Part shown: piece by piece, positions 28,681-45,281 of the stretch
Layout: every line of letters starts with the position of its first letter
How positions within the stretch are numbered: position 1 is the stretch's first letter
Assembly: GCF_013177315.1 (NCBI RefSeq)
Contig: NZ_CP053661.1
Span: 434,001-498,000, forward strand
Source: Thermoleptolyngbya sichuanensis A183
GTDB taxonomy: Bacteria; Cyanobacteriota; Cyanobacteriia; Elainellales; Elainellaceae
Reading direction: 5' to 3'
Length of the DNA: 64,000 nt
The notes under the pieces: generated by a model
Told to the model about the DNA's origin: nothing
Database searches by the model: none
What the model saw: only the letters and a program-made list of their open reading frames with translations
Translations under genes and position numbers: made by a program

Positions 28681-30045
28681 ATGCATACCCTGCCCCCCGG
28701 CACTTTTGGACTCCCCTTTCTCGGCGAGACGCTCAACTTCTTTACCGATCCCAACTTTGCCCAAAAGCGCCATGAACAGTATGGCGACCTGTTCAAAACG
28801 CGCCTGTTGGGGAAGCCGACGATTTTTATGCGGGGCGTGGAAGCGAATCAGTTTGTGCTGAGCAACGAAAACACGTACTTTAGCGTGGACTGGCCGCCCA
28901 GCACCAAGGCGCTGCTGGGGAAACTGTCTCTGGCGCTGCAAACCGGGCACGAGCACCAGTCTCGCCGCAGGCTGCTGGCTCAGGCTTTTATGCCGCGAGC
29001 GTTGTCGGGCTATATCAGCACAATGGAAGCCATCACGCAGCGCTATACCCAGCGCTGGCAGCAGCAGGGCCAGCTAACGTGGTATCCCGAACTGCGAAAC
29101 TACACGCTGGATATTGCCTGCAAGCTGTTGGTGGGGCTGGACAAGGGTTCCCAAACTCGCCTAGGGCACGTTTTTGAAACCTGGTGTCAGGGTTTATTTT
29201 CAATTCCGCTCAATGTGCCGTGGACGGCATTTGGCAAGGCCAAGCGGGCGCGGCGGCTGCTATTAGAAGAAATGGAGCAAATTATCCGCGATCGCCAGCA
29301 GAGACTCTCTCAGTCCCTCAATTCCTCAGATGGGCCAGAGTCAGACGGGTCAGAGGCTAGCGACGCGCTGGATTTGCTGATTCGCGCCCGCGACGAAGAC
29401 GGGCAGGGCCTCAGCCTGGAAGAGCTAAAGGATCAAGTCTTGCTGCTGTTGTTTGCAGGGCATGAAACCTTGACCTCGGCGATCGCCTCCTTTTGCCTGC
29501 TCACGGCCCAGTCGCCCGACGTGCTAGACAAACTGCGGGCCGAGCAGCGCGGGTTTGACCCAGCCGCGCCGCTGAGCCTCGATTTGCTGAAACAAATGAC
29601 CTATCTAGAGCAAGTGTTGCGAGAGGTGCTGCGGCGTATTCCCCCGGTCGGCGGCGGCTTTCGCACAGTGCTGCAAGACTGTGCTTATGGTGGCTACACC
29701 ATCCCCAAAAACTGGAGCGTGCTGTATCAAATTGGGCCGACGCACCAAGATGCATCCCTCTATCCCCAGCCAGAGCAGTTTGACCCAGAGCGATTTAGTG
29801 CTGCCCAACTGGGCGATCGCTCGGCCGATCAGCAGCGCTACGGATACGTGCCCTTTGGCGGCGGCATCCGCGAGTGTTTGGGCAAGGAATTTGCTCGGCT
29901 AGAAATGAAGATCTTTGCCACCCACCTGCTGCGGCATTGGCAATGGACGCTGCTGCCCGACCAAGACTTGAGCATGGTGATTGTCCCCACGCCCCACCCC
30001 CGCGACGGGCTGCGGGTGGCGTTTGTGGCACGGGAGGCAGGCTGA
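28681..30045 (+). CDS. Cytochrome P450, CYP120-like
   Basis: A 454-residue haem monooxygenase. It has the Pro-rich start LPPGTFGLPFLGETLNFF, the I-helix oxygen motif LFAGHETLTSA, ExxR in EVLRRIPPVGGGFR and the haem ligand loop FGGGIRECLGKEFARLEMK. The N-terminus and the haem region closely resemble the cyanobacterial CYP120 family, whose studied Synechocystis member hydroxylates retinoids. There is no membrane anchor, so it is cytosolic. ATG 28681 is preferred over TTG 28648. Its stop TGA overlaps the ATG of the next gene, so the two are translationally coupled. An electron-donating partner is not encoded nearby. Confidence 0.93.
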   Translation: MHTLPPGTFGLPFLGETLNFFTDPNFAQKRHEQYGDLFKTRLLGKPTIFMRGVEANQFVLSNENTYFSVDWPPSTKALLGKLSLALQTGHEHQSRRRLLAQAFMPRALSGYISTMEAITQRYTQRWQQQGQLTWYPELRNYTLDIACKLLVGLDKGSQTRLGHVFETWCQGLFSIPLNVPWTAFGKAKRARRLLLEEMEQIIRDRQQRLSQSLNSSDGPESDGSEASDALDLLIRARDEDGQGLSLEELKDQVLLLLFAGHETLTSAIASFCLLTAQSPDVLDKLRAEQRGFDPAAPLSLDLLKQMTYLEQVLREVLRRIPPVGGGFRTVLQDCAYGGYTIPKNWSVLYQIGPTHQDASLYPQPEQFDPERFSAAQLGDRSADQQRYGYVPFGGGIRECLGKEFARLEMKIFATHLLRHWQWTLLPDQDLSMVIVPTPHPRDGLRVAFVAREAG

Positions 30046-30818
30046 TGGCGGCTTCTCCCCCGTTTATCGTCATCAACGGCCAGCAGCAGCTTTCTCTTGC
30101 CCAGGCGGTGCGATATTTGCAGGCAGCGGGCAAGCTGGACGAAATGATTGGCGAAATCCTGCGGCAGTTTGTGCTGGATCAGGCATTGGGCGATCGCGCT
30201 GCGGGGCAGCCAACCGGGGCAGCGGTGGAGGCGGCGATCGCCCACTTTCGCCAGCAGGCAGATTTGACCGATCCCCTCGCGTTTCAGACTTGGTTGGAGT
30301 CTCAAGGGCTGGATGCAGAAGCCCTGCAAACCCAGACCCAGCGAGAACTCCAGCTTCGCCAACTGCGCGATCGCCTGACGGAGCCGCACCTGTCGCAGTA
30401 TTTCATTGAGCGCAAGCTGGATTTGGATCAGGTTGTGCTGTCGCGGCTGGCGGTGGGCGATCGCGATCTGGCAGAGGAGCTATATCAACAATTGCTAGAG
30501 GGCGCAAGTTTCGAGACCCTGGCGCAGGACTATTCCCAAACGGGCGATCGCCTGTTCAATGGAATGCTGGGGCTACTCAGCCGGGGCAGCCTGCCCGATG
30601 CCCTCCGCGCTGCCGTGGATGCGGCCACTCCTGGCGATGTGCTGCCGCCGCTGTTTATCGAGCAAGAAAACCTGTGGTGCGTCTTCCGGCTGGATCGCGT
30701 CCTGCCTGCCACACTCGACCACCCCGAAGTGCTGGAAACCCTGCGGAATGAGCTATTCGACCAGTGGATCATGCGGCAGCTCGATGGGCTGGATATTGAG
30801 GTGTTGGTGGGAGAGTGA
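30045..30818 (+). CDS. Parvulin-like peptidyl-prolyl isomerase family protein
   Basis: A 257-residue protein. The N-terminal half is helical and charged (SurA-like, with Gln-rich helices around 80-125). The C-terminal part resembles a PpiC/parvulin domain: AEELYQQLLEGASFETLAQDYS, GMLGLLSRGSLPDALRAAV and GDVLPPLFIEQENLWCVFRLD. No signal peptide is visible, so it is probably cytosolic. The ATG overlaps the P450 stop (TGATG), with GGGAGG upstream. The longer open frame from 29874 runs through the P450 gene in another frame and is discarded. Coupling to a P450 suggests a folding partner or peptide-related substrate. Confidence 0.78.
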   Translation: MAASPPFIVINGQQQLSLAQAVRYLQAAGKLDEMIGEILRQFVLDQALGDRAAGQPTGAAVEAAIAHFRQQADLTDPLAFQTWLESQGLDAEALQTQTQRELQLRQLRDRLTEPHLSQYFIERKLDLDQVVLSRLAVGDRDLAEELYQQLLEGASFETLAQDYSQTGDRLFNGMLGLLSRGSLPDALRAAVDAATPGDVLPPLFIEQENLWCVFRLDRVLPATLDHPEVLETLRNELFDQWIMRQLDGLDIEVLVGE

Positions 30819-36647: not shown

Positions 36648-39600
36648 ATGTCTGATTTGCAGCAGAAGCATCCGCCGGGAACGTCGCCGCTGGCACTGTG
36701 GTTTCGCGATACCACGGGGCTGACGGAGGAGCGCGTCCAGTTTCGCCTGCGCGGCAATCATCTGCACATTCTCTGTGAGGCGCAGCCCTGCCCCGACCGG
36801 GGGGCGATCGTGGGGCGGCTGCTGCCTGCGCTGCGGAAGGTTGACCTGAATACGCTGGTGCCCGCCGGACAGCCGACGATTTATCAAATTTATCTCTACG
36901 GTCGGCGACCCGGACAGTCGTTGCCGGACTGGTCGTTTTCGATTGATCTGCACCAGTTGGACTATCAGCTCCAGCAGTTTCTTGGGGAACAACTGCTGGC
37001 GGAAGAGTCCCCAGAGTCCTCGTCGCAGCGGGGCGGGCAGTTGGCGACGGTCAGTGCCGGATCTAGGTCTGTTTCAAAGGTTGGCTTTGGTGGGCTGCTG
37101 TCGGGCGATTCGCGTAGCGATCTCTCTGGGAATCGCTCGGTCGAAGGCGATGCGGCGCTCTCTGGGTCAACCCTGGGTCTGGCGCGGCAGGGGCATCCGG
37201 GGGCGATTCGCGAAGCGACCCCTGCGGGAATCGCCCGCTACCTGAGCGACCACCTCAGCAGCTTTGGCATATCCGTGAGGGCAACCGTCAAGCCGCTGCG
37301 CCTCGCCCCAGGGCCCGATCCCGATGCCGCACCGGAACCCCCACCCCAGCGGCTCTGGGTGCTGTGCGAGGCGAATTATTCGCTGGATTCCTCTCTGCTG
37401 GCGGAGCCGCTGGCTCAACATTTGCGCGATCTGCGGCTAGAGGGCTTTCGGGATGCGGTGGTGCGGGTGCAGGTGGCGGGCGAAAGCCAGCCTGACTGGA
37501 TGCTCCAGGTCGATCTGACACCGCCCGATGCCATGCTGCGAGAGTGGGCCCGCTGGGGCGACGTGGGCAGTCTGACGCGCCTGCTCAACCCGGTGCTGGA
37601 GATGCTGGAGGGCGAGGTGTCTACCGCAACGCTGCGGGACTCGACGCTGCACCTGTTTTGTAGCCCCCTGCCCCAAAGCAGCCTTGCGCCCCATCCCCCC
37701 GACCGAGCGGCAGTGAAAGCGGGCGTGGGGGCTGTGTTGCAATCCATCGCGCCCCAGGGCATCCATGCTGCGACGGTCTACGGCCAGGTATTGCATCAGG
37801 AAACGCCGGCCTGGGTGGAATGGCTGGATTTGCCCGCCAGCCAGCAGCCGCACTTGGCAGACTCGACGCTGACCCTGGCCCAGCGGGGCGACTGGGGGGC
37901 GATCGCCTTTCTGCTGAATCGTCTGCTCAACCCCGACCTGACGCAGCAGTTGGCGACGGGCGGCATCCGTGTCCAGCTTTTGCCCAAGCCCGATGGCAGC
38001 GTATCATCGGATGCACCCACCCACGCCCAGCGCTATCTGCTGCATGTGATGAGCGATGCGCCCGTCTGTCCAGACCAGCGGCGGGTTGGCACGACGGTGG
38101 TGCGCTTTCTGCGGGATCTGAATTTGCCGCAACTGGCCGGTGTGCGGGTTTACGGGCGGCGTGCGGGACAAAAGTGGCCGCTGTGGAGCTATGGGGTGGA
38201 TTTTGCGCCGCGATCGCGCGTGGTGCCAGAGCCAGCGCCAGAATTTGCGGCCACCGATGCCTATGTGGGCGACCTGCTGACTCCTGGCGGCGACCTGATC
38301 TTGCGCTCCGACGCAGATCTGCAAACCGTCTGGCAGCGCTGGTGCGATCGCCTCAGCGCGTCGATTCGGCGGGCGTTGGTGAAAACGCACCTGTTTGCTC
38401 CCACGGAGGATGCCCCCGCAGACGACTCCTCGGAAGCCTGGCGCTCGGACGGCCGCAGCTATCGGAATGGGGCCCTAGCAGCGGTGTGGGGGGCGGCAGG
38501 GCTGCTGTTGGCGGTGCAGGCAGACTGGCATCTGGCGCGACTCTTGCAGCAGCCTGAGCAAACGACCCAGCCGGATCGGTTTGTGGCGGTGGATGAGGTG
38601 CCGTCGCTGGCCTTGCCGCCAAGCCGGAACCCCTCGGCGACCGCTGCTGAAGCCGGAGCCGACGACGGGCGATTCCCACCGGGAGCGCTACGCAAATCGC
38701 CCAGCCCAGAGCCGCAGACCGAGGGCGATCGCATCTTTGATTTATCAGGCTTTACTCGCAATGAGGAAGCCGAAGGGGAGTCTAGCACCCCCAACCCGTC
38801 GCCCTCGCCAGAGGTGCAGATCTCGTCGCGATCGCTGCCCTACACGCCCGTCAGCGCGACCGAGCCGCAGACGGTGGCCGAGGTGCTGGCGGCGGGGCTG
38901 CCCTTCCCCACCTTCAATAGTCGCCAGCTCGACGAGAAGCTGATGCTCTACTACGAGCGGCTGCGGCAGACGGGCAACCCGCCCGATGTGCTGATCGTGG
39001 GTAGTTCGCGGGCCCTGCGGGGGGTTGACCCGGTGGCGCTCCAGCGGGAACTGGCGACCCTGGGCTATGCCGATGTGTCGGTGTTCAACTTTGGGGTCAA
39101 CGGCGCAACGGCGCAGGTGGTGGACGCGATTTTGCGGCAGGTGCTAAAGCCCAACCAGTTGCCGAGGCTGATTCTGTGGGCCGACGGGGCGCGGGCCTTC
39201 AACAGCGGCGCGGTGGATGTCACCTACAACGGCATTGCGGTGTCGCCTGCCTATCGGGAGCTATTGGCGGGCACGCTGGCGCGACCCCAGGTGCTACCGG
39301 AGGATTTTGAAACCCCAGCGGAACCCGCAGAACCGACACCGACCCTCAACACCACGCTGCGCGACAGCTATCAAACCCTCGACCGCTGGCTGAGTCGGCA
39401 ACTGGGCGATCGCTCGGCGGTGTTTGGTCAGCGCGATCGCCTTAAGGACGCGCTCCAGCAGCGGGTTCGTCCAGAGTCCCCCAGCGCCGTGTCTGCGGCC
39501 CCCCCGCCGGGCCGCAGCCCGATGCCCTCGCGGTTGCCCGCCGACTCGGCCGAGTCCCTGGTGGAGGCGGGGCGCGACCTGATCGACTTCGACGGCTTTT

Positions 39601-40019
39601 TGCCCCTGGCGCTGCGGTTCAACCCCGCCACCTACTACCAGGAGTATGCCCGCGTGCAGGGCCGCTACGATGGCGACTATACGGATTTTCGGATTGAGGG
39701 CGTGCAGGCGGCGGCGTTTCAGTCGGTGCTGAGGCTGGCGAGCGATCGCAATATTCCCGTCATTTTCATCAACCTGCCGCTGACGGATGAATACCTCGAC
39801 CCGGTGCGCCGCCAGCACGAGCAGACCTTCCGCCAATACCTGCTGCGCGAGGATCTGGACAGCCCCAGCCTGGTTTTCCGCGACCTGGGCGAAATCTGGC
39901 TGGATCAGTACGACTATTTCTCTGACCCCAGCCACCTGAATCGCTACGGCGCGTTTGCGGTTTCTCGGCGCATTGCCCAAGACCCGATGATTCCCTGGAG
40001 CTACGCCAGAGGCAAGTAG
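36648..40019 (+). CDS. DUF1574-type protein: four N-terminal repeats, one span, SGNH-like domain
   Basis: A 1123-residue protein. Residues ~13-103, 194-291, 306-396 and 415-521 look like four diverged copies of one domain. Each has a strand pair ending in a sugar/peptide-like pattern, such as IYLYGRRPGQSLPDWSFSID and VRVYGRRAGQKWPLWSYGVD. A hydrophobic segment follows at about 607-625, then a low-complexity linker. The C-terminal ~370 residues are the DUF1574 region, with an SGNH-hydrolase-like block I VLIVGSSRALRGVDP (about 781-795) and a late DPSHLNRYG (Asp-x-x-His, about 1093-1101). This suggests an esterase or acyltransferase-type fold facing the periplasm, but activity is unproven. Three dispersed palindromic repeats lie in the linkers. 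Confidence 0.8.
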   Translation: MSDLQQKHPPGTSPLALWFRDTTGLTEERVQFRLRGNHLHILCEAQPCPDRGAIVGRLLPALRKVDLNTLVPAGQPTIYQIYLYGRRPGQSLPDWSFSIDLHQLDYQLQQFLGEQLLAEESPESSSQRGGQLATVSAGSRSVSKVGFGGLLSGDSRSDLSGNRSVEGDAALSGSTLGLARQGHPGAIREATPAGIARYLSDHLSSFGISVRATVKPLRLAPGPDPDAAPEPPPQRLWVLCEANYSLDSSLLAEPLAQHLRDLRLEGFRDAVVRVQVAGESQPDWMLQVDLTPPDAMLREWARWGDVGSLTRLLNPVLEMLEGEVSTATLRDSTLHLFCSPLPQSSLAPHPPDRAAVKAGVGAVLQSIAPQGIHAATVYGQVLHQETPAWVEWLDLPASQQPHLADSTLTLAQRGDWGAIAFLLNRLLNPDLTQQLATGGIRVQLLPKPDGSVSSDAPTHAQRYLLHVMSDAPVCPDQRRVGTTVVRFLRDLNLPQLAGVRVYGRRAGQKWPLWSYGVDFAPRSRVVPEPAPEFAATDAYVGDLLTPGGDLILRSDADLQTVWQRWCDRLSASIRRALVKTHLFAPTEDAPADDSSEAWRSDGRSYRNGALAAVWGAAGLLLAVQADWHLARLLQQPEQTTQPDRFVAVDEVPSLALPPSRNPSATAAEAGADDGRFPPGALRKSPSPEPQTEGDRIFDLSGFTRNEEAEGESSTPNPSPSPEVQISSRSLPYTPVSATEPQTVAEVLAAGLPFPTFNSRQLDEKLMLYYERLRQTGNPPDVLIVGSSRALRGVDPVALQRELATLGYADVSVFNFGVNGATAQVVDAILRQVLKPNQLPRLILWADGARAFNSGAVDVTYNGIAVSPAYRELLAGTLARPQVLPEDFETPAEPAEPTPTLNTTLRDSYQTLDRWLSRQLGDRSAVFGQRDRLKDALQQRVRPESPSAVSAAPPPGRSPMPSRLPADSAESLVEAGRDLIDFDGFLPLALRFNPATYYQEYARVQGRYDGDYTDFRIEGVQAAAFQSVLRLASDRNIPVIFINLPLTDEYLDPVRRQHEQTFRQYLLREDLDSPSLVFRDLGEIWLDQYDYFSDPSHLNRYGAFAVSRRIAQDPMIPWSYARGK
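37104..37136 (+). repeat. Dispersed palindromic repeat in DUF1574 gene, copy A
   Basis: GGCGATTCGCGTAGCGATCT then CTCTGGGAATCGC. Read as GDSRSDLSGNR in the linker between the first two domain repeats. Confidence 0.82.
37201..37236 (+). repeat. Dispersed palindromic repeat in DUF1574 gene, copy B
   Basis: GGGCGATTCGCGAAGCGACC then CCTGCGGGAATCGCCC. Same orientation as copy A but read in another frame, giving GAIREATPAGIAR. Confidence 0.85.
38667..38702 (-). repeat. Dispersed palindromic repeat in DUF1574 gene, copy C (inverted)
   Basis: Opposite orientation to copies A and B. It encodes GRFPPGALRKSP in the low-complexity linker before the SGNH-like domain. Confidence 0.82.
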
Positions 40020-40212: not shown

Positions 40213-41729
40213 CTTTAGTTTGGACTAACTGGCATCACAATAATGCTCAACAGGATGCCATAAAGAATCTGCTCAACCGTTCATAACAGTTGAACTTAAG
40301 GAATTGGATACAATCCTGCTCGCAGTTAAGCTGCTGTTGCAACCGGACTGTTCAGGGATTGTTCGGATGTCTTGCGTTTCGAGGCTCGTTTTTTGACCAT
40401 CGGATAGCAGGGACGAGGAGTTGGCTTGTGCCCCTTGCCTCGTCCTGGCGATTTACCACGAGGTTTAGGCGCAGGAGCAGGGGTGCCAATCGCTGCCAAA
40501 ATGCCTGCAAACGCTTGTGCGACCCGACCCGGAGTCAACGTTTCTTGCGGTGCCTGCCAGGGCAAGGGGTGGTCAGTACAGTCCTTTCGCGCTAACCACA
40601 ACTGCCAACTGAGCAACGGCATCAGGCTGCTCCACTGTTCGGTTGCCGATACAGAACTGAACTGGGGATGTGTCCAATATAGCCTCTGCTTGGCAAAGCG
40701 ATACCAGTGTTCAATGGCAAAGCGACGGAGGTAGTGCAACCACAGGGTTTCTAACGGAGGCATCTGCTCACCCAGCCAAACTAACCACAAAGGAGCCAAG
40801 CGTCGCGTGCTGCTCTGTGTCTCCAGCACCTCCACGCGCAACACTTCCATTGCCCGTTTGGGGGATTTGCGGAAATGGTATGCACTCCAACGACTGACCC
40901 GCACTCGTCCCCAGTTGGGATCATCGACTTCAACGGTTTCGACCGGGACACTCCAAGTGTCAGGGTCATTGAGTTTCATCTTATGTCCATGCTTGGCAGG
41001 TGCGCCTCGCCCTCGATACGCTGGGGGCGCGCCATAGACACATCGATTGGATGTAACCCGCAGCAGCAAGTCTGCCTCAATCCCTGCCGTTTGGTTGACA
41101 AAACTGGCATTGCCGTACCCTCGGTCGTAGATCGCCAACGGACGCACCGCTAACTGCCGAGTCACTTGTTTGAGTTGGAATGCCGCTTTACTGGCGGGTG
41201 TTTCAAAGCTGGTGATGCGCTCATGCCGCAATGGTAATGCCCAACTGCCCCTGTCTTCAGCAATCCAGGCTAAGGTACTGTAGTTTTGTCCGGCTATCGG
41301 GGCATGTCCTGTTCTGCCTGATAAGGTGCGGTCTTTCAAACGCCTGGCAGCAGGACGGTTCCACCGACTCGCATCACCTGCCAACAACGGTTGCTGCTGA
41401 GTCGGTATCTGCTGCACCAACAGCTTCAGCACCTTTGATCGGGGTAGGCGGCTATCGCGCAACGCTTCATAGGTGCTCGACCACTGGCGACGAAAGACAG
41501 GACTCTGCGATAGCCTCACAAACGACACGATGCACGCACTCACTAACACGGCATCCATCAGATCAAACAGGGCATCTCTGGCGTTTCCCAAGCTGGCATA
41601 CAACGTTTGGCGAAATTGCTGAAGTTCGTTGAAAATCATGGGGTCAATGTTGGTTGTACTTCATTGACCTTACGGCAGTCGGTGCTTCTCATTGACTGCC
41701 TTCCTCTTCACCATTAGTCCAAACTAAAG
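40213..41729 (-). mobile_element. Complete insertion sequence (1517 bp) with 16-bp ends and 7-bp target duplication
   Basis: The ends are perfect 16-bp inverted repeats CTTTAGTTTGGACTAA (40213-40228, and its complement at 41714-41729). They are flanked by the direct repeat AGAATGA at 40206-40212 and 41730-41736. A single transposase gene lies on the minus strand. The element sits inside the histidine phosphatase gene in the same orientation. The family is uncertain, being DDE-type but not showing the YREK signature of the first IS. Confidence 0.92.
40326..41639 (-). CDS. DDE transposase (family uncertain, IS701/IS4-like)
   Basis: A 437-residue transposase. Candidate catalytic acids are in LLAGDASRWNRPAARR (first D), LAIYDRGYGNASF (second D) and FAIEHWYRFAKQRLYW (E). 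The N-terminus MIFNELQQFRQTLYASLGNARDAL and the C-terminal basic, Pro/Lys-rich tail are typical of a transposase group common in cyanobacteria. The frame is intact, so the copy may be active. The gene starts 75 bp from the right inverted repeat. Confidence 0.88.
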   Translation of the reverse strand: MIFNELQQFRQTLYASLGNARDALFDLMDAVLVSACIVSFVRLSQSPVFRRQWSSTYEALRDSRLPRSKVLKLLVQQIPTQQQPLLAGDASRWNRPAARRLKDRTLSGRTGHAPIAGQNYSTLAWIAEDRGSWALPLRHERITSFETPASKAAFQLKQVTRQLAVRPLAIYDRGYGNASFVNQTAGIEADLLLRVTSNRCVYGAPPAYRGRGAPAKHGHKMKLNDPDTWSVPVETVEVDDPNWGRVRVSRWSAYHFRKSPKRAMEVLRVEVLETQSSTRRLAPLWLVWLGEQMPPLETLWLHYLRRFAIEHWYRFAKQRLYWTHPQFSSVSATEQWSSLMPLLSWQLWLARKDCTDHPLPWQAPQETLTPGRVAQAFAGILAAIGTPAPAPKPRGKSPGRGKGHKPTPRPCYPMVKKRASKRKTSEQSLNSPVATAA

Positions 41730-42392
41730 AGAATGAACTGCTGGAGGGCGCGGGTCTGCTGGGGTTCTGTGGTGCGATCGCCAAAAAATGAGTTCAGCAC
41801 GGGGAACGGCTCCACCGGGGCCAGATCCATCAGCCGCGCTGTGTCTAGGCTGCGACACCACTGGCTCGACAGCACCCGCGCCACCGGAATCTGCCGCTGC
41901 CGAAAGGTCTCACCCAACTGCTGCGACTGCTGCTGCCCCGCTGCGTCCAGGTTGCGCTGGGTCGAGCAATCGTCGATCCGAAAGGCGGGTGGGTCGCCTG
42001 TTCCTGGGGCGCGGGCGTGGCGAAACACGCAACGAACCACGCGGTCTCAGTAAGCTGAAATCCAGAGTCGCCTGTTCCTAGGGCGCGGGCGTGGCGAAAC
42101 AGCACCACGACTCCCGATTCCTGTCGCAGCAGGGCCCACAGTTCCTCGGCAGAGCGGGACGGGGATTGCACCACGAGGGGCGGCGCGGTGGGAGCGGTGG
42201 ACTGGGCGATGGGACTGGGCGGTGCGGCGCTGGGCAGGGCGCTGGGCAGGGCACTGGGTGCGGGTGAACTGGCCATCGGCCCAGAGGCACAGCCCAATAG
42301 GGTGAAGGCGCTCAGCAGGGCGATCGCCCCACTCGTTACGGTCTGAACGCCCGTCGAAAATCGCCTCAGGTCAACCATTGAAATGAAAATGC

Positions 42393-45281
42393 TCATCCGG
42401 TGAAGATATTTAGCTGGCCCGCGGGTTCTCGCAGGCGGGAGCGGCGACTGGCGGTTTTGCTCGGCACCCGCTCGGACGACTCGGCCGGACTGGACTCGCC
42501 CCGCAGCCCTACCGCAATGTGGGAATGGCGCTCGATCTGCCCCATCACCTGCCGCGCCCGCTCGATGACCGAAGCTGGCAGCCCCGCCAGCCGACCCGCT
42601 TCGATGCCGTAGGACTTGTCTGCGCCGCCGGGCCGCACCTGATGCAAAAAGATAATCTGATCGGGCAGTTCTTTGACGACCACCTGGTAGTTGGCTACGT
42701 TAGACAGCAGCGACGCGAGTTCGTTGAGTTCGTGGTAATGGGTGGCAAAGATGGTGCGGGCGCGAATGTCGGTGGCCAGGTGTTCTGCCACAGCCCAGGC
42801 AATGGAAAGGCCATCAAAAGTGGCCGTGCCCCGCCCAATTTCGTCCAGCAGGACGAGCGATCGCGGCGTGGCGTGGTTGAGAATGTTGGCCGTCTCGTTC
42901 ATCTCCACCATAAAGGTGGACTGACCCGTGGCCAGGTCGTCTACTGCACCGACGCGGGTGAAAATGCGATCGCACACTCCCAGGGTTGCCGCCGCCGCAG
43001 GCACAAAGCTGCCCACCTGCGCCATCAGTTGAATCAGCCCCACCTGCCGCAGGTAACAGCTTTTGCCACTGGCGTTGGGCCCGGTCAGAATAATCAGGTC
43101 TGGGGCGCTGTGGGTAGCCGTGGGGGTAGGCGCAGGCGCGTCGGCGGGCGGGCGCGGTGGGGGAGGGGCGATCGTCCCCCGGCTGCCCCCGGTTCCCCTG
43201 TCTGGATCTCCAGACCCTAAGGTTGCCGAATTGGGCACGAAGAACCCGGCGGGCAGGGATTGTTCCACGACGGGATGGCGGCCGTCTACGATCGCAATCT
43301 GGCGAGACTCTGTGATGGCTGGGCGGCAATAGTTTTGATAGACCGCCACTTCGGCTAGGGAACAGAGGGCATCTAGGGCGGCGATCGCCCCCGCCACCTG
43401 GCGAATCGACTCGGATTGCTCGGCCACCTGAAGCCGCAGTGCCGTGAAGATTTCGTACTCCAGCTTATGGACGGCTTCGCGGGTCAGAAAAATCGCCGAT
43501 TCCCGCTGCTTCAGTTCTGGCGTGATGTAGCGCTCTTCGTTGGTGAGGGTCTGCTTGCGGATGTAGTCGTCGGGCAGGTCGGCGCTGGCTTTGGCCCGCG
43601 AAATGCTGAGGTAGTAGCCAAAAGCTTTGGTGTAGCCCACCTTCAGGGTGGCGATGCCGGTGCGCTGGCGCTCGGTGGTTTCAAGCTCGGCGATCCACTG
43701 CTGGTCGGCCTCGATGCTCTGGCGCAGGCGATCGAGCTGGGGATTCACTCCGGGGCGGATCAGGTTGCCCTCGGTTAGGTAGAGGGGCGGCGTTTCGACC
43801 AGATGGGCCCGCAGCGTTTGCCCCAGGGTGTCCATCACGGGGGGCACGGTTTGCAGCGCGATCAGAAAGGGCGATCGCCCCACTGCCACCAGATCAGCAA
43901 TCTCTGGCAGCTTGCCGAGGGAATCTGCCAGGGCCACCAGGTCGCGGGCATTGGCGGTGCCCGATCCGGCCCGCCCCGTCAGCCGCTCTAGGTCGTAGAT
44001 TTGCTTGAGGACCTGCTGAAGCTGCTGGCGCAGAGTCCCCTGGTCGATCAGTTCTTGAATTGTGTCCTGCCGCGCCTGAATCGCGGATCGATCCAGCAGG
44101 GGTTGTAGCAGCCAGCGCCGCAGCGCCCGCCCGCCCATAGCCGTCACTGTGCGGTCCAGGGCCCACAGCAGGGAGCCGTGAAACGTGCCGTCGCGCTGGG
44201 TTTGGGTAATTTCCAGGTTGCGGCGGGTCTGGTGGTCGATCACCAGAAAATCGCTGAGGGTGTAGGTGTAGAGGGGCTGGAGGGGAATGCGGGTGGGGTA
44301 GGCGTGAGCTGCGGGCGGGGCGGGGGACGGGGCAGCGTTAGCTTCGGTGGGGACGGCTTCGAGCTGGCGCTCAGAGGTTTCTTCCAGGTATTGCAGCAGC
44401 CCGCCCGCCGCCCGCACCGCTAGGGGCAAATGTTCACAGCCCATGCCCTCTAGCGATCGCACGCGGAAGCGCTCCAGCAGGCGTTGGCGGGCCTCGGCTG
44501 CCTGAAACGGGGCCTGGGGCCGCAGCGTATAGCAAAACTGGGGCGGCAGTGCCTCTGGTAGGGCGGCGGCTCGGCGCGGATCGGGGATGCCGGCGCGGGG
44601 ATCGGGGCGCAGAAGCCCCACCAGATCGGGGGCGTTGGTGGGCAGCAGAATTTCGGAGGGCTGGAGCCGCAGAATCTCCTGGGTCAGCCGGTCCAGCCCG
44701 CTGGCCTGGGTGGTGAGGAACTCGCCCGTCGATACATCGGCGATCGCCAGCCCCCAGTGCGTCCCAGCTATCACCACCGCTGCCAGGTAGTTGTTGCGGC
44801 GGGCGTTCAGCATTCCTTCCTCCAGCACCGTGCCGGGGGTAATCACCCGCGTTACCTGGCGCTGCACCAGCCGCCCTTGGGCATCGGCGGCATCTTCGGT
44901 CTGGTCGCAAATGGCGACGGCGTAGCCCCGCTCCACCAGTTGGGCACAGTAGCGCTCCATGGCGTGGTGGGGCACACCCGCCAGCGGCACTCGCCCCACG
45001 GTCTTGCCTGCGTCTTTGCTAGTCAGCACCAGCTCTAGCTCCTGGGCGATGGTGATGGCATCCTGAAAAAACGTCTCAAAGAAATCGCCCACCCGATACA
45101 GCAGCAGCGCCTGGGGATATTCGTCTTTCAGATCGGCGTAGTGCCGCATCATCGGCGTGAGCGCGTCGCGGTCTACCGAGCGGTGGTCGGTATAGCGCAC
45201 CGTCTGCTTGATGAGCCGGTCTGGCAGGTCTCCTAGCCGTTGAGGTTCCGGCGCGTTGGGGGCAGGGGGCAGGTCGGTCAT
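42393..45281 (-). CDS. mutS: DNA mismatch repair protein MutS
   Basis: A 962-residue mismatch-recognition ATPase. The N-terminal mismatch-binding motif is GDFFETF (family GxFxE) near residue 65. The core and lever domains follow, then the C-terminal ABC ATPase with Walker [25 protein letters not shown] and [16 protein letters not shown], and the ending contains the usual helix-turn-helix dimer region. A Pro/Ala-rich insert of about 40 residues lies just before the ATPase domain ([20 protein letters not shown]), which is unusual. Its stop overlaps the ATG of the histidine phosphatase gene (ATGA), so the two form an operon. Confidence 0.96.

Follow-up and report, generated by a model that had tools for sequence, protein, structure and literature searches.

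An unnamed four-copy domain joined to a probable SGNH partner of a membrane-bound O-acyltransferase in cyanobacteria

We focused on the open reading frame (ORF) 36648-40019 (+) of a 64,000-nucleotide window from the cyanobacterium Thermoleptolyngbya sichuanensis A183 (NZ_CP053661.1, positions 434,001 to 498,000), whose genome consists of one contig of 5.5 Mb. By the window we mean this whole stretch, and coordinates without a locus or contig label refer to it. The start of the ORF lines up with that of its closest named relative (L035), and the encoded protein combines four N-terminal copies of one unit, a single predicted membrane span, and a C-terminal domain of the SGNH type that probably works together with a membrane-bound O-acyltransferase (MBOAT). 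The features of the gene are given below.

36648..40019, + strand: whole gene, 1123 amino acids; four N-terminal units, one membrane span, and an SGNH (DUF1574/DltD-like) domain
36687..36962, + strand: unit 1, residues 14-105; from profile comparison and AlphaFold topology
37224..37526, + strand: unit 2, residues 193-293; from profile comparison and AlphaFold topology
37554..37841, + strand: unit 3, residues 303-398; the best modelled unit (predicted local distance difference test score [pLDDT] about 90 in most blocks)
37887..38213, + strand: unit 4, residues 414-522; from profile comparison and AlphaFold topology
38469..38525, + strand: predicted single membrane span, residues 608-626; from a hydropathy scan
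38901..40001, + strand: SGNH domain, residues 752-1118; from Foldseek, VIA-align, Pfam, and motif alignment
39000..39011, + strand: block I GSSR, residues 785-788, with the presumed nucleophile Ser787; invariant in 24/24 aligned relatives
39924..39935, + strand: block V DPSH, residues 1093-1096, with the presumed catalytic Asp and His; invariant in 24/24 aligned relatives

The N-terminal half has strong relatives (best E below 1e-34) in 57 of the 79 cyanobacterial genomes compared here, which represent 27 families and include the genome of the window; three further genomes gave weak matches only. The protein had been labeled a DUF1574 protein in an earlier interpretation made without database searches (referred to as the sequence-only reading here), and this label holds weakly: DUF1574 (PF07611) is the sole Pfam match, scoring 25.2 bits with the whole protein, under the curated cutoff of 29.1, and 29.6 bits with the SGNH domain alone. 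The match spans only the SGNH part and not the array of units, and a scan of the whole protein with NCBIfam matched no model.

The proposal that the N-terminal half consists of four diverged copies of one unit was borne out by profile comparison. From an alignment of the window protein and 42 relatives (43 sequences) we cut out the four unit segments, and all six unit pairs matched each other (E 6.7e-18 to 4.3e-9, probability 96-99%), compared with E values of 0.035-0.43 for 14 of 15 pairs of control segments; the fifteenth control pair (sg2-lk) scored because its two segments overlap at residues 990-1000. An AlphaFold model of residues 1-545 (mean pLDDT of 67, from an alignment of 5 sequences, with unit 3 mostly at 83-93 per block) predicts the same helix-strand-strand-helix-strand-strand topology for each unit, rather than different folds. 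The sequence marks by which the units had been recognized needed revision. YGRR is confined to units 1 and 4; unit 3 reads YGQV instead, and unit 2 lacks a counterpart. Of the strand said to end in WxxxVD or SID, the Trp and the following Asp do recur, although the mark common to all four units is Pro-x-Trp followed by Asp (PDWSFSID, PDWMLQVD, PAWVEWLD, and PLWSYGVD). Trp, Leu, and Pro are the nearly universal residues of the unit, and the spacers between units 2, 3, and 4 are short. Two distant relatives, L169 and L170, contain one unit each by profile; judged by eye, a second, degenerate unit may lie ahead of the first. The single span proposed between the repeats and the SGNH domain is likewise seen as a hydrophobic segment at residues 608-626, with a matching segment above the hydropathy cutoff in 38 of the 43 aligned sequences.

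The C-terminal domain is predicted to adopt the alpha/beta/alpha fold of the SGNH superfamily. With a model of residues 735-1123 as query, the first three Foldseek matches are DltD chains (best E 0.034, prob 0.82), and VIA-align returned 50 rows with Z of 12.2-8.7, root mean square deviations of 3.3-4.7, and 160-231 aligned residues. Nearly all of these rows are, judged mainly by their titles, SGNH esterases or transferases, and three are designed scaffolds. DltD reached Z 11.4, tied with the top row, over 225-231 aligned residues, and PatB reached Z 11.0. The SGNH-like blocks noticed earlier in this half are present as GSSR and DPSH, so that both the block I Ser and the DxxH of block V known from the superfamily are found; we take Ser787 of GSSR to be in register with the GDS of SGNH block I. 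The regions of the Ser and the His, at model residues 53 and 362, lie after a strand (47-51) and ahead of a late helix (365-377), respectively, as in SGNH folds. Searching 24 members of the family against Pfam at E up to 0.1 gave DUF1574 for 23/24, DltD for 9/24, Lipase_GDSL_2 for 7/24, and ALGX for 1/24. The distant relatives L169 and L170 score 50.3 and 55.9 bits with DUF1574 and also pass the DltD cutoff of 22.7, with 29.0 and 35.7 bits. A search of solved structures with an SGNH profile reached TesA at E 0.16; the designed pentatricopeptide repeats at its top (E 7e-7) were discarded as an artifact in which a single helix was matched weakly up to ten times.

Given that an MBOAT is the known partner of SGNH proteins of this kind, we compared the positions of the two genes by eye. 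In at least 5 of the 55 genomes carrying both genes, from three families, the SGNH gene is immediately followed on its own strand by an MBOAT gene, with gaps of 60 bp in G059 and G073 (f25) and 3 bp in G055 (f21) and an overlap of 4 bp in G047 and G066 (f13). Such linkage can be missed, because many of the genomes are drafts. Among the matches listed, we saw no repeat-free, short SGNH paralogue adjoining an MBOAT. The genome of the window encodes a single MBOAT (G000:C1:2416357-2417892), which shares 52-63% identity with the linked MBOATs. A tree of 25 MBOATs places it with all five linked proteins in one clade, clade A, which is split from the remaining clade B with a support of 1.000. Its best relatives among solved structures are DltB-type proteins (E 2e-30 and 4e-30). 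Tyr509, Phe512, His314, and His354 are invariant in all 25 aligned MBOATs, and the C terminus reads YIYF[DE]F in 15/15 clade-A proteins sampled (YIYFDF in the MBOAT of the window's genome) and F[IL]Y[FY][QE]F in the 10 others. The shuttle motif described for PatA, whose Tyr is acylated, is FXYXXF (PMC12148441), and by sequence the C terminus of clade A appears to be a shuttle-like near-match to it.

The distribution of the two genes supports the same pairing. Counting genomes with both genes, the SGNH gene only, the MBOAT only, or neither, we obtained 55/5/1/18 for the SGNH gene and clade A among all 79 genomes, where a 132-residue fragment in G028 was scored as a clade-A MBOAT. All six exceptions are genomes that are 93% complete or less; among the 64 genomes with a completeness of at least 95%, the counts are 46/0/0/18, and the SGNH gene and the clade-A MBOAT never occur apart. 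The counts are 44/0/0/5 (p 5e-7) when genomes must also have at least 4 Mb and 16/1/0/10 (p 1e-6) when made by family, these p-values being too small, since genomes from 27 families are not phylogenetically independent. Clade B served as a control and does not track the SGNH gene (26/34/4/15, p = 0.11). Pooling both clades gave 54/6/4/15, such that splitting them sharpened the contrast, and this contrast between clades A and B stands despite the relatedness of the genomes. By adjacency as well as co-occurrence, the SGNH gene is thus paired with an MBOAT gene in the manner of bacterial MBOAT-SGNH pairs.

A second, repeat-free SGNH paralogue is present in many genomes, and shorter ORFs with an SGNH match accompany many of the relatives. 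In the genome of the window, such a repeat-free SGNH/DUF1574 paralogue of 547 amino acids lies at L034:5633-7276 and has, by eye, a hydrophobic stretch near its N terminus. The fused, repeat-bearing form looks like the constant partner of the MBOAT, because six genomes that are 95% or more complete (G043, G053, G056, G059, G068, and G073) have a clade-A MBOAT and, among the matches listed, the fused gene as their only SGNH match.

Taken together, these data suggest that the protein is probably the extracytoplasmic SGNH half of a two-protein cyanobacterial MBOAT-SGNH envelope acyltransferase, similar to PatA/PatB or DltB/DltD and extended by a cytosolic docking array. The sequence-only reading had already suggested a glycan acyl-transfer machine from the combination of a repeat part, a span, and a hydrolase/acyltransferase domain. 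Fold and motifs agree with it, and its strongest support is the linked and co-occurring MBOAT with its shuttle-like C terminus. In the PatAB and Dlt systems, the MBOAT takes an acyl group from a cytosolic donor and attaches it to a C-terminal Tyr, which belongs to the MBOAT itself or to DltX, and the acyl-Tyr gives its group to the SGNH Ser and from there to the polymer (PMC12148441). By analogy, we infer the chemistry, acyl group, acceptor, topology, and role of the array as follows. The DltB-like clade-A MBOAT would transfer an acyl group of a cytosolic donor to Tyr509 of its C-terminal YIYFDF, and the acyl-Tyr would swing to Ser787 of GSSR in the periplasmic SGNH domain, activated by Asp1093/His1096. 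The SGNH domain would then pass the group to an acceptor in the envelope, presumably a glycan, while the four N-terminal units would remain cytosolic and act as an array for the docking or clustering of a shared cytosolic partner.

Several observations weigh against this assignment, in addition to the relatedness of the genomes mentioned above. Linkage with the MBOAT is absent in the genome of the window itself, and direct linkage was seen in a small share (at least 5) of the 55 genomes with both genes; the repeat-free SGNH paralogues could share the MBOAT or be its actual partner. In the C terminus of clade A, the Tyr and the last Phe fit FXYXXF, but the first position is Tyr and not Phe. The SGNH model is poor overall (mean pLDDT of 50), and no Foldseek match to it falls below E 0.001. 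A plain GxND of block III is not found in the sequence; WADGARAFN is conserved among the aligned relatives, in uncertain register with GxND. DltD (PF04914, cutoff 22.7) matched neither the whole protein at E up to 1 nor the SGNH part at E up to 0.1. The positive charges beside the span are not consistently N terminal and leave its orientation unfixed. Finally, the top VIA-align row is an esterase resembling platelet-activating-factor acetylhydrolase (Z 12.2), and because this row ties with DltD, the fold alone does not tell a transferase from an esterase.

This last point opens a different explanation, in which the SGNH domain is a periplasmic esterase that strips acyl groups from glycans, opposing the MBOAT instead of receiving from it. 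Many esterases share the fold, one of them gives the highest Z here, and an enzyme that removes a group would co-occur with the MBOAT that adds it just as a transferase would. We nevertheless consider an esterase quite unlikely. The MBOAT gene can follow directly downstream with a 4-bp overlap, DltD and PatB rank with the esterases, with DltD aligned over more residues, and in the six genomes named above the fused gene is the sole SGNH match listed beside the MBOAT. If the PatAB model applies, the shuttle Tyr of that MBOAT would moreover need an SGNH receiver.

The unit is not confined to this family and, as judged from sequence, is a general cyanobacterial domain found at the N terminus of other membrane proteins, mostly as a single copy. 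A unit profile detected six further unit proteins in the genome of the window (E 3.8e-10 to 8.3e-4), and a broader profile found at least one copy in 71 of the 79 genomes at E 1e-4 or better. Two genomes of 4.7-5.1 Mb from family f14 (G048 and G067) have, among the matches listed, no unit (E up to 1e-4), no SGNH gene, and no clade-A MBOAT; most genomes of similar size do have the unit, the SGNH domain, and a clade-A MBOAT. We fetched 20 hand-picked regions, which contain 22 unit proteins, two of them the SGNH proteins L169 and L170. Each of the 22 contains one or more hydrophobic segments strong enough for a membrane span, and in the 20 non-SGNH proteins the first unit begins at residues 17-42 when the first possible starts are used. 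A Pfam scan of 22 non-SGNH unit proteins (the six from the genome of the window and sixteen others) assigned a partner domain above the cutoff to 8, only weak matches to 2, and no match to 12. The domains in those 8 are NB-ARC in three proteins (two with HYDIN-type Ig repeats), PGA_cap in two, Pilin_GH together with CD225, PrsW, and DUF4870, so that the proteins bearing the unit include CapA-like, NB-ARC/HYDIN, PrsW, and pilin-like membrane proteins. Two of them, at L090:5867-9895 and L156:2447-6922, join the unit to an NB-ARC ATPase and several HYDIN/ASH-type Ig repeats, a STAND-like but odd architecture.

Known domain models do not capture the unit. Scanning 36 unit copies of SGNH proteins with Pfam and NCBIfam gave scattered single-member matches at E 0.018 or worse, and the unit profile found nothing among solved structures (best E 0.16). 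Beyond chromosomes, the whole protein matched none of the plasmid records, the single unit of L090 gave two matches among 72,556 plasmid records, both cyanobacterial, and none of the 41 pattern matches in viral contigs encodes a relative. Because the unit occurs in 71 of the 79 genomes and these 36 copies went unrecognized by Pfam and NCBIfam, a group of unannotated cyanobacterial membrane proteins could take its name from it.

The array of four units is probably on the cytosolic side of the membrane, because no hydrophobic segment precedes unit 1 in the hydropathy scan and because, in the protein at L156, the unit and the NB-ARC ATPase lie together on one side of the only span found, with the Ig-type repeats across it. 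The same two observations make it very improbable that the units are periplasmic glycan-binding modules on the side of the SGNH domain, an arrangement for which the conserved aromatic residues and the unsettled charges around the span could be cited.

What the array does is less easily read from its predicted fold, for which the searches were indecisive. Foldseek with the N-terminal half returned FliF chains as its top three (best E 3e-3, prob 0.30), with none below E 0.001, and VIA-align, matching mostly unit 2, gave a tie of acyl-AMP ligase, OsmC-like, RNA-binding, and ring-building rows at Z 6-8, a range that the tool itself calls common arrangements. The FliF matches raise the idea that the array is a module that builds oligomers, comparable to the ring-building motifs of FliF, PrgK, and SpoIIIAG, by which the protein would form clusters or rings in the membrane. 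The FliF and injectisome-ring rows reach Z 5.9-7.4, again mostly against unit 2, and the short spacers between the consecutive units 2-4 would suit such a module. We regard this as unlikely, given that OsmC-like, RNA-binding, and other folds score alike, that proteins with a single unit are common, and that the motifs of FliF are described as periplasmic (PMC8092281), whereas the units are probably cytosolic. The RNA-binding chains (9lrg, Z 7.5; 3gku, Z 7.0) point in another direction, namely, to a KH-like unit that binds a small cytosolic ligand or nucleic acid and allosterically regulates the periplasmic enzyme. KhpB/EloR, which we take to be RNA-binding, is among these rows, and the unit also precedes NB-ARC signaling ATPases. 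Here, too, the Z values lie within the unspecific range, the four units have diverged strongly from each other, and no binding motif is apparent, because the nearly universal Trp, Leu, and Pro look structural; ligand binding therefore appears rather improbable to us. We favor instead a docking or clustering site for a shared cytosolic partner. Taking this one step further, the unit might be an undescribed cytosolic address domain that gathers the envelope acyltransferase (with four copies) and the CapA-like, NB-ARC/HYDIN, PrsW-like, and pilin-like proteins around one common cytosolic partner, coupling envelope modification to other membrane processes, with the acyltransferase as the missing polysaccharide O-acylation system of cyanobacteria. 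We offer this broader idea tentatively, as a possibility that may well turn out to be wrong.

The surroundings of the gene add little to this picture. A gene on the opposite strand upstream is conserved in 14 of 41 loci (one locus being counted twice under two identifiers) and encodes 1000-1107 amino acids in ten of the rows. It looks to us like a phosphoenolpyruvate carboxylase, and we take its conservation as stable gene order and not as a sign of functional partnership. Just downstream lies an insertion sequence (40213-41729) that is bounded by perfect inverted repeats of 16 bp (40213-40228 and 41714-41729) and encodes a DDE_5 transposase (40326-41639, - strand). Beyond it, the stretch 41730-42040 (-) resembles, in our estimate, part of a histidine-phosphatase-like gene, which the insertion sequence may interrupt; the ORF 41845-42396, which overlaps this stretch, had no Pfam match. 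That the gene itself is cargo of a mobile element was rejected, because SGNH relatives occur in 17 of the 27 families. Elsewhere in the window, an ORF for a PPIC-type rotamase (29874-30818), taken from its earliest possible start, shares sequence with the last part of a cytochrome P450 ORF (28648-30045); the true start of the rotamase ORF probably lies later.

Among known systems, the proposed pair resembles PatA/PatB in combining an MBOAT, here with a shuttle-like C-terminal hexapeptide that contains a Tyr, and an SGNH protein with a single predicted span; PatB is described as probably anchored through one span at its N terminus (PMC12148441). PatB is also among the structural matches of the SGNH model, as given above. 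The MBOAT studied here, however, is nearest to DltB by sequence among solved structures, and PatB is not known to have a cytosolic four-unit array. Similarity to DltB/DltD is seen on both sides of the pair: Foldseek ranks DltD first for the SGNH model, and among solved structures DltB matches the MBOAT best by sequence. In contrast to Dlt, which has the microprotein DltX, the pair has its shuttle-like motif within the MBOAT, an arrangement shared with PatA, and cyanobacteria would not be expected to have DltA/DltC or teichoic acid. The logic of an MBOAT acting with an SGNH protein is also that of alginate O-acetylation by AlgI, AlgJ, and AlgX. AlgJ and AlgX are described as circularly permuted, with the blocks in the order H-S-G-N (PMC9487903), whereas here Ser787 precedes Asp1093/His1096 by about 306 residues, which is not the permuted order. 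DUF1574 itself appears in a table of that 2022 review with no known activity and no structure (PMC9487903). For cyanobacteria, a phylum-wide survey of exopolysaccharide genes set aside AlgI and other modification proteins, reporting no putative AlgI in Synechocystis and noting that such proteins may not be the same as in other bacteria (PMC4594306). Neither a cyanobacterial MBOAT + DUF1574 pair nor the unit array is mentioned in the titles and abstract openings that our searches of the open-license literature listed. MBOAT-SGNH pairs as such are known; judged by those titles and abstract openings, a cyanobacterial pair with a DUF1574 member and an array of an unnamed domain appears to be new. 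The MBOAT + DUF1574 pair, carried by 46 of the 64 genomes that reach 95% completeness, is a concrete candidate for such a step of exopolysaccharide modification.

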